From Candidatus Latescibacterota bacterium (GTDB lineage: Bacteria; Latescibacterota; UBA2968), in assembly GCA_022821275.1 (NCBI GenBank), contig JAJEDY010000007.1, positions 1 through 35,257 of the forward strand: a DNA stretch of 35,257 nt, read 5' to 3'. Under the pieces are notes generated by a model. The model had not been told where the DNA came from. It did not search any database and saw nothing but the letters and a program-made list of their open reading frames with translations. Shown here one piece after another: positions 2,131 through 4,069 of the stretch (positions are counted from its first letter, which is position 1; every line of letters starts with the position of its first letter). The translations under genes were made by a program, and so were the position numbers.

Positions 2131-2264
2131 ATTCGGTCTGGGATATTTTTTATTTTAATTAAAAATAACGGGTTATACGTATAAATATTTGAATAGACTC
2201 ACATTGGCACGGATATTGCAGGTAAATATTATGGGGATAGGTCTCAAATTCTATAGGAGGAACT

Positions 2265-2966
2265 ATGGACAAGCAGAAAATTCTGATTGTAGATCATGAC
2301 CTGCTTGTAATCTCAAAGCTTGCGGGATTCTTGTGGGATGAACCCTATGAAATATGTCTGGCAGGATATGGGATAGAAGGTCTTGAAATTTTGAGAAAAG
2401 AGGAGATTGATCTTGCTGTCGTCGAGCTACATGTAGAGGGTATAGATGGTATAACGCTATTGAAGCATGTGAAGGAGGAAAAAATTCAGACAGCTATGCT
2501 GATCATGACGAGTTTAAGATCTGCAGAATTGGGCGAACAACTGATCAAGGCTGGCGCTGCAAGTGTATTTGACAAACCAATAGAGAGAGATGTTTTTTTG
2601 ACGCAGGTCAAAAGATATATGCCTCCACACGATATGTGGAAGATCAGGTTTGAAGTATTTTTGGAGGATCATTACAGCAATCCAGATCTAAAATTTGAAG
2701 ATGTCATGCGCTATTTCCGATTTTCTAAGTCGCATGGTTACGCATTGTTCAAAAAACATTTGGGCAAGACCTTCCGTGAATCATTGAGGAAAGTTAGAAT
2801 TGAAAAAGCAAGATTATTGATTGAAGAAACTCTATTGCCAATTTCTGACATTGCAGCACACTGTGGTTTTCGTTCATCATCGCGTTTAAACGAAGCTTTT
2901 AAGAGATTATATGGCATGTCTCCCCGTGCTTATCGAAAAAAAGTGGACATACGCGTAATAAATTAG
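2265..2966 (+). CDS. Response regulator with AraC-type DNA-binding domain, Glu at the phospho-site
   Basis: Receiver domain (residues 5-118) joined to an AraC/XylS double helix-turn-helix domain (about 125-225), so a transcription factor. The receiver keeps Asp10 (ILIVDHD), the Thr of the LIMTS strand and Lys of FDKPI. At the phospho-acceptor position the sequence is AVVELHVEGIDG, giving Glu54 where the family has Asp, and the second acidic pocket residue is His11. Asp-to-Glu at this site can mimic phosphorylation in some regulators, so this one may be constitutively active or controlled otherwise. The HTH part is canonical (ISDIAAHCGFRSSSRLNEAFKRL, then GMSPRAYRKK). GGAGG lies 5 nt before ATG. 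The last nine codons lie inside a direct repeat (2936-2972), so the C-terminal tail VDIRVIN is probably repeat-derived. Confidence 0.9.
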   Translation: MDKQKILIVDHDLLVISKLAGFLWDEPYEICLAGYGIEGLEILRKEEIDLAVVELHVEGIDGITLLKHVKEEKIQTAMLIMTSLRSAELGEQLIKAGAASVFDKPIERDVFLTQVKRYMPPHDMWKIRFEVFLEDHYSNPDLKFEDVMRYFRFSKSHGYALFKKHLGKTFRESLRKVRIEKARLLIEETLLPISDIAAHCGFRSSSRLNEAFKRLYGMSPRAYRKKVDIRVIN

Positions 2967-3015
2967 ACGTACTAATGCAAAAAAAGTGGACATACGCGTA
3001 ATAAATTAGACGTAC
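2936..3015. repeat. Tandem 37-bp direct repeat over the 3' end of the AraC gene
   Basis: Positions 2936-2972 and 2979-3015 are identical over 37 bp, with a 43-bp period. Each copy begins with seven A residues and contains the palindrome TACGCGTA. A further GCGTAAT follows at 3016. The first copy encodes the end of the regulator and its stop codon. Confidence 0.9.
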
Positions 3016-3031
3016 GCGTAATTTTTTGCTG

Positions 3032-3061
3032 TTGAAATTGTAGTGGCAATTGTATTATTAT
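3032..3061 (+). promoter_or_regulatory. Candidate promoter for a structured RNA
   Basis: TTGAAA (3032-3037), an 18-nt spacer and TATTAT (3056-3061). A start about 7 nt later would fall at 3068, one base before the first hairpin of the proposed RNA. Confidence 0.4.
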
Positions 3062-3067
3062 AAAGAA

Positions 3068-3264
3068 GTCGCCGACAGATTCTGGCAAGTCAAATGTCGG
3101 CGATGGGATGTATCTCAAGCTAATAACTTGAGAATATTAGTTGCCATTTTGGAAACGTGTGAATACAAACTCAGGAAAGCTCAACGGCTGCGGGATGTTT
3201 CTCTGGATTTTTCCAGAAAAATAAGGGACCGGTCCTCCCTTCCCGCAGTCTATTTTATTTTTAT
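3068..3264 (+). ncRNA. Candidate structured small RNA, about 195 nt
   Basis: No convincing protein is encoded here, but the strand carries ordered inverted repeats. TCGCCGACA (3069-3077) pairs perfectly with TGTCGGCGA (3095-3103). CTCAAG (3114-3119) pairs with CTTGAG (3127-3132). The 3' end forms a three-way junction: outer stem CTGCGGGA (3188-3195) / TCCCGCAG (3241-3248) encloses hairpins TCTGGA/TCCAGA (3202-3217) and AGGGA/TCCCT (3224-3240). A U-rich tract (3249-3264) follows, as in an intrinsic terminator. A promoter-like pair ends just before the first hairpin. I do not recognise a known RNA family (no 6S, SRP, RNase P, tmRNA or riboswitch core motif). The alternative is an untranslated tail or decayed mobile DNA. 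Confidence 0.35.
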
Positions 3265-3274
3265 AACCCAGCCA

Positions 3275-4069
3275 TTATCTCACGCGGATATCCGGCATTT
3301 TGTCCATTAATCCGAGTTCTACACCATAAGCGTAGAATCGCCTTAAGCCTTTCAATTCTGGGTCGCCCAGGTCGTAGAGAATATTTTTGGTCAGATATTC
3401 TGCATAAAACGCGGGCGATAGGGTGCGGGTTTCTGCGGCATAGTCCTTTGCGATGTTTGGGATAAGCGGCTTGCCTTTTTCCTTGGCTTCGATCAGTTTG
3501 GCAATGTGATATGGCGTCAATGCATCGGGACGCCCGGTCCAGCAGGCATAGACAAAGGGCAGTCCGGTCATCCGCGTCCATATTTCGCCCAGATCCAGAA
3601 TCCGATAGCGTTTGCGGGGCAATGTCAGCGCGGAATCACCTATCAGTAAGGCGGCATCAGCGCATTTGAGCATTGCGTCTATATCTGGAGGATGAAAAAA
3701 TACCTGTGGTCGGCAGCCAAATTGTCGCGCCAGTACGATCTGCGCCAGTACGACTGATGTGCGCGATCCGCGATCCAGAGCCAGTGTTTGAATTTCTTGG
3801 GGTTCTTTGTTCAGGACAATAAGTACGCTGCCAACAGGTCCGTTTGAAATAATGCCGACATTGGGCACAATCCGATAGGCGTCATGTCCGCGTCCAATTT
3901 CTGCAGTGGGGATCAATGCCACATCGGTTTCACCCCTGTGCAGCCGTTCGGCGCATCGCGAGGGTACGTCGTAGATCAGTTCGAAATCGCGATCATTCGC
4001 GCCCGTGCGCAGCATTTCAACCAGTGGCCGCGTGTTTAAGTATGATACTACGCCCAAACGCACACGCAT
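3275..4069 (-). CDS. mqnA: Chorismate dehydratase, futalosine menaquinone pathway
   Basis: MqnA converts chorismate to 3-enolpyruvoyl-benzoate, the first step of the futalosine route to menaquinone, in the cytosol. The 264-residue protein has the periplasmic-binding-protein-like fold of the family. It shows the N-terminal GVVSYLNTRPL motif, the DVALIPTAEIGR segment, ALLIGDSAL in the middle, and the EIWTRMTGLPFVYACW signature. The start is ATG at 4069. The stop of the upstream substrate-binding protein gene lies only 6 bp away on the same strand, so the two are probably co-transcribed. No other mqn gene is in the window, which is common because the pathway genes are often scattered. The presence of mqnA implies a menaquinone-based respiratory chain. 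Confidence 0.93.
   Translation of the reverse strand: MRVRLGVVSYLNTRPLVEMLRTGANDRDFELIYDVPSRCAERLHRGETDVALIPTAEIGRGHDAYRIVPNVGIISNGPVGSVLIVLNKEPQEIQTLALDRGSRTSVVLAQIVLARQFGCRPQVFFHPPDIDAMLKCADAALLIGDSALTLPRKRYRILDLGEIWTRMTGLPFVYACWTGRPDALTPYHIAKLIEAKEKGKPLIPNIAKDYAAETRTLSPAFYAEYLTKNILYDLGDPELKGLRRFYAYGVELGLMDKMPDIRVR

Follow-up and report, generated by a model that had tools for sequence, protein, structure and literature searches.

One of the questions raised by the short stretch between a response-regulator gene and a convergent menaquinone-biosynthesis gene in a Candidatus Latescibacterota genome (assembly GCA_022821275.1) is whether it specifies an RNA and, if so, of what kind. The window, by which is meant the whole stretch of 35,257 nucleotides that was analysed (contig JAJEDY010000007.1), had been the subject of an earlier note, made from the letters alone, which proposed at this position a single unannotated structured RNA with its own promoter and a three-way-junction terminator. 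The reading favoured here, in which our confidence is evenly balanced, is that the window locus carries an orphaned member of a family of structured leader RNAs that is specific to one genus and is under the control of a response regulator (Table 1).

The elements described in the note are present in the sequence. Both promoter boxes are there and have promoter-like counterparts in related copies, and the two hairpins that begin at about 3069, together with the three-way junction and U-rich tract that follow them, all occur in the minimum-energy fold. For the stretch of 197 nt the fold has an energy of -66.3 kcal/mol (z = -5.0), a value matched by 0 of 200 shuffles. The opposite strand folds equally well (z = -5.7), so that the forward strand is chosen by the promoter and the U tract only. 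Since single matches of the TTGAAA-18-TATTAT type are common in the window (11 found, 5.3 expected), the promoter call rests on conservation in the related copies. No known gene occupies the RNA: an 86-aa TTG-start ORF lying over it (3050-3310) was rejected as a gene, having zero matches in a Pfam search and a frame kept in one of six orthologues, G005 alone. The RNA also matches no Rfam family; in an Rfam 15 scan of the window the sole match at the curated cut-off was a tRNA, the best match to 2940-3300 (E up to 10) fell far under the cut-off with none credible, and four related loci of the RNA gave 0 matches. Literature searches found no paper on this RNA, and in the accessible part of PMC12993501 the terms small RNA, noncoding, response regulator and AraC do not occur.

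Table 1. Features of the window locus and its surroundings
Feature	Position	Strand	Evidence
Putative sigma-54-like promoter TTGGCAC-N5-TTGC, upstream of response-regulator gene	2204..2219	+	read in sequence
Response-regulator gene, Response_reg and AraC-type HTH, 233 aa	2265..2966	+	PF00072 6.2e-16, PF12833 2.1e-21
Tandem repeats GACATACGCGTAAT / GACGTAC.., proposed regulator site	2946, 2966, 2989, 3009 (2946..3022)	+	read in sequence
Sigma-70-like promoter TTGAAA-18-TATTAT	3032..3061	+	boxes TTGAAA 3032-3037, TATTAT 3056-3061; similar boxes in related copies
Two-hairpin RNA module without 3' tail	3062..3147	+	model R1 match 67.8 bits, E 1.9e-17
Hairpin 1, GTCGCCGACA...TGTCGGCGAT with inner stem	3068..3104	+	minimum-energy fold, covariation
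Hairpin 2, TCTCAAG-CTAATAA-CTTGAGA	3113..3133	+	minimum-energy fold
Linker ahead of terminator, kept in hairpin-less orthologues	3148..3186	+	orthologue alignment
Three-way-junction (Y-shaped) terminator and U-rich tract	3187..3264	+	model R2, fold, alignment
VitK2_biosynth (menaquinone-biosynthesis) gene, convergent	3275..4069	-	PF02621 1.7e-52

The window copy has relatives. Within the genome from which the window comes, a search at the DNA level returned four more partial copies, and of 100 genomes searched as relatives 10 gave matches, all of one genus and the window's genome included. A covariance model of the RNA (R1), built from 27 full-length copies, recognised 39 places in 10 of 70 genomes, exclusively in the window's genus, where 10 of its 11 genomes carry the RNA; in the sole genome of the genus without it (G008) the regulator was also not found at E 1e-20. 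A looser hairpin-1 pattern gave 38 places in the same 10 of 64 phylum genomes, again all of one genus, and zero in the other 54 genomes of the phylum, against 1 match for the reversed control pattern; the same 38 places were returned over 41 genomes. A pattern scan hit 15 loci in a named genome collection, 13 of them in records named Latescibacterota or Latescibacteria (9) or Gemmatimonadota (4), and the other two, which lie outside the phylum (L075 and L082), were dropped as chance because model R1 does not recognise them. This is a structured RNA family absent from Rfam 15, with several copies in most genomes of one Latescibacterota genus. The usual copies stand in a single orientation at a near-constant position just past the -10 box and end in a ATTGTCAA tail, which the window copy lacks.

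The support for a structure at the RNA level comes from hairpin 1, a conserved hairpin carrying a 3-nt side bulge. Among 29 distinct sequences, giving 290 cells (the chance match L075 was left out), 94.1% of the cells were paired, as against 22.4% and 19.0% after a one-column slide. Changes on both sides were found in three of the ten pairs (C-G/U-A, G-C/A-U and U-A/C-G), amounting to 12 cells, a number reached in 0 of 500 shuffles, as was the covariation score. The count of pairs with double changes (153/500) and the number of further pair types (350/500) did not exceed those of shuffles, and 9 of the 29 copies lack the pair at position 6-33. In the window the hairpin has arms of 10 with a terminal G-U pair. 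Hairpin 2 is almost invariant in sequence among copies and therefore offers little covariation evidence, so that compensatory changes above the controls were found in hairpin 1 only. The loops of the consensus fold are 8 and 7 nt long. An alternative pairing of CTAATA with TATTAG, which had been taken as a hint of a switch, is shared by the window copy with that of G005, to which it is 95% identical, and is absent from the other two hairpin-bearing orthologues. The proposed switch is not conserved and was rejected. Hairpin 1 (GACAA/GACAG) was noticed by eye to be complementary to the 3' tail (TTGTC/CTGTC). Separately, L014, L022 and other long-type loci have a conserved inverted repeat like GTGAACAATATGTTCAC between the RNA and the sigma-54-like motif, possibly a hairpin or an operator.

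The notion of an unannotated structured RNA with a promoter-like site thus stands, but not that of a single element, as the locus falls into two parts, the genus-wide module, tail-less here, and a separate Y-shaped terminator. The outer stem of the latter pairs about 3187-3195 with 3241-3249, encloses two inner hairpins and is followed by TCTATTTTATTTTTAT; folded alone, the junction has z = -4.8 (1 of 200 shuffles). A second model (R2) found this structure at 11 places in 8 of 26 genomes, and its pairs are kept at 97.9% in the alignment. Its covariation is no better than that of shuffles (81 of 500 reach it). As modelled, 3187-3264 has the form of an intrinsic terminator, a GC-rich stem with a U-rich tract at once after it, the stem being branched, and to judge from the alignment it is separate from the two-hairpin module, since it stays in orthologues without the hairpins. 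The Y terminator recurs at three other loci (G003:C47:34596-34714, G005:C35:193336-193453 and G004:C171:3884-3989), at one with part of the linker and at one directly after a truncated AraC-type gene.

The neighbourhood of the RNA was compared over 40 copies, namely 38 of the model R1 places (an antisense match at G009:C17, overlapping a sense copy, was excluded) and two from the pattern scan of 41 genomes. Twenty-three lie upstream of a gene for a homologue of the window's response regulator, 8 just downstream of such a gene or its remnant, and 9 have no regulator on either side, two of these nine being cut by contig ends. The regulator-less copies head other genes, such as those for an ABC exporter, a beta-helix protein and an HlyD-type protein, and other copies sit in clusters with genes for S8 peptidase, thioredoxin-like proteins, MauE, rhodanese and an FtsX/MacB-like permease. 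As the RNA is multi-copy in the genus and usually lies beside one regulator type, it is probably a new regulatory RNA and not a chance fold.

Several further features of these loci may be recorded. In a cluster spread over L165 (3580-15380), L166 (143-8433) and L167 (10173-15029), hairpin 1 is repeated at several operon heads among genes for an acyl-carrier-like protein (by eye), S8 peptidase, ABC exporter, MauE and rhodanese, polysaccharide-type genes and possible short precursor peptides. A regulator paralogue with one in-frame TAG occurs in three genomes (G000:C10:7735-8412, L115; G007:C1:2197582-2198268, L090; G006:C122:4113-4799, L194), and in L115 the TAG falls between the receiver and HTH halves, as if the regulator were divided into two proteins. 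At the usual phospho-acceptor position the receiver has Glu in the window protein and in 6 of 9 aligned paralogues, and Asp in the other 3.

Upstream of the window promoter are four repeat units, of which the last pair (GACATACGCG/GACGTACGCG, at 2989 and 3009) is spaced by 20 bp and stops immediately before the -35 box, while the other pair (2946, 2966) lies within a 43-bp duplication. This tandem duplication (window 2925-3010, 91% identical) extends across the stop codon of the regulator gene, and it leaves the putative operator in two copies. Over 30 copies, the regions upstream of the -35 box had a self-match of 0.518 at a 20-bp shift, compared with at most 0.338 for shuffles at that shift and 0.249 to 0.353 at the remaining shifts between 8 and 31. 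Binding to tandem sites of this kind is frequent among AraC-type proteins, and the fact that tandem 20-bp repeats adjoin the -35 box suggests that the promoters of the RNA copies are activated by the adjacent receiver and AraC-HTH regulator. Related regulators (best 56-59% identity) also occur in four genomes of a sister order, where each of the two regulator genes is followed by tandem GACAA-type units and a promoter-like site (8/8 flanks by eye), and model R1 finds no RNA in these genomes; the regulator and its operator therefore look, from this comparison, older than the RNA. Some related regulators within the genus also have similar repeats and no hairpin, which implies that the RNA is not needed for the regulator.

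For the RNA family, the most likely role is that of a regulator-activated leader. The adjacent receiver and AraC-HTH protein would bind the tandem repeats beside the -35 box and thereby switch on the sigma-70 promoter, and the transcript would start a few bases ahead of hairpin 1, which would place this hairpin at the 5' terminus. The RNA of the usual copies would serve as an untranslated leader, either to the regulator gene or to an export/modification operon, and within it hairpin 1, hairpin 2 and the ATTGTCAA tail may have an effect in cis, the simplest being one on the stability or the translation of the transcript. It fits a leader that 20 of 23 loci have no terminator-like site between RNA and regulator. 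At the window locus, where the tail is lost and no known gene lies on the forward strand before the convergent menaquinone gene, transcription would stop at the Y terminator to give an untranslated RNA of about 195 nt.

The window copy, tail-less and fused to the Y terminator, is one of seven orthologous loci. The full module with terminator is found in G007 and G009, tail-less versions in G000 (the window's genome) and G005, and promoter, linker and terminator without the hairpins in G001, G003 and G006; the terminator is kept in all three situations. Given these variants, the window copy looks like an orphan under remodelling. Noncoding identity at the locus is about that of the regulator's third codon positions, so that selection on the window copy is not demonstrated. 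A serious, if somewhat less probable, reading is that the two-hairpin stretch at the window locus is a decaying remnant, a leader whose gene was lost and which has no present function, and that only the terminator matters, as the place where the regulator transcript stops. Such a reading can stand beside the leader explanation for the family as a whole. It would account for the absence of tail (G000, G005) and hairpins (G001, G003, G006) beside two full copies and for the lack of clear conservation above third codon positions, and a small regulator-gene tree, in which the two tail-less loci come together (support 0.928) as do the three hairpin-less ones (0.955), fits one loss per branch, the deeper order being weak (0.156 and 0.487). 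On the other hand, the pairing of hairpin 1 is intact in the window, a difference within its stem in G005 preserves a pair, and promoter and repeats are kept in 7 of 7 loci.

Rather unlikely is the alternative of a free-standing, trans-acting sRNA made on the regulator's command, of which the window type would be the functional form and the leader-like copies would be processed or stopped before the regulator. The window locus does have its own promoter-like site and terminator, and both hairpins plus the terminator are kept in four of the seven orthologous loci. In addition, 17 of 23 paralogous loci have the putative sigma-54-like motif TTGGCAC-N5-TTGC between the RNA and the regulator, so that the two may be separate transcripts. 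However, the hairpins are missing from three of the seven orthologues, terminator-like sites separate RNA and regulator in only 3 of the 23 loci, and when the window RNA was paired with the start regions of 27 genes in the window, the best duplex with the regulator came 10th, on a par with unrelated genes. The GacA/RsmY-RsmZ-type sRNAs are also structured, untranslated RNAs with their own promoter under response-regulator control, which the present RNA would share, but its copies are without conserved GGA loops and are mostly placed as leaders. A CsrA/RsmA-binding sRNA, with repeated GGA in hairpin loops, was rejected, as 4 of 29 copies of hairpin 1 have a GGA between their arms.

It is improbable that the palindromes work as DNA, whether as sites bound by a protein or as a small mobile repeat, and do not represent RNA structure. 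Their multiple copies, their presence or absence between orthologues and the near-invariant hairpin 2 would suit such elements; the compensatory changes, which include C-G to U-A and U-A to C-G, the near-constant placement and single orientation of the usual copies behind the -10 box, the zero copies in the 54 other phylum genomes and the 0 matches in viral contigs argue for RNA. Most improbable is that hairpin 1 loads a specialised NusG paralogue for LoaP-like processive antitermination, an idea prompted by the copies that head long export/biosynthesis-like operons and rejected because all 17 genomes searched, whether they have the RNA or not, carry exactly one NusG gene (PF02357).

Among known leaders, the LoaP/dfn leader and the EAR element belong to secretion and secondary-metabolite operons, and the RNA described here is similar in that its hairpin heads long biosynthetic or export operons; it differs from both in having no NusG paralogue and no Rfam match. 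ANTAR-target leaders carry two tandem hairpins with matching hexaloops. The tandem arrangement within a leader is shared, the loop sizes are not, and an ANTAR-target RNA was rejected on that account.

A broader scenario, offered tentatively and with some doubt, is that this RNA class arose within one Latescibacterota genus and was wired one-to-one to multiplied AraC-type response regulators, each of which would turn on its own leader; the leaders would coordinate export and peptide- or polysaccharide-modifying clusters, and copies of the window type would have been cut loose as free sRNAs. The family itself is well delimited, new to the catalogue and from a phylum that has received very little study. 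Since a likely controller and its proposed DNA site can be named, RNA, regulator and operons are open to joint testing, and the window locus catches such an RNA in the course of trimming and loss among close relatives.
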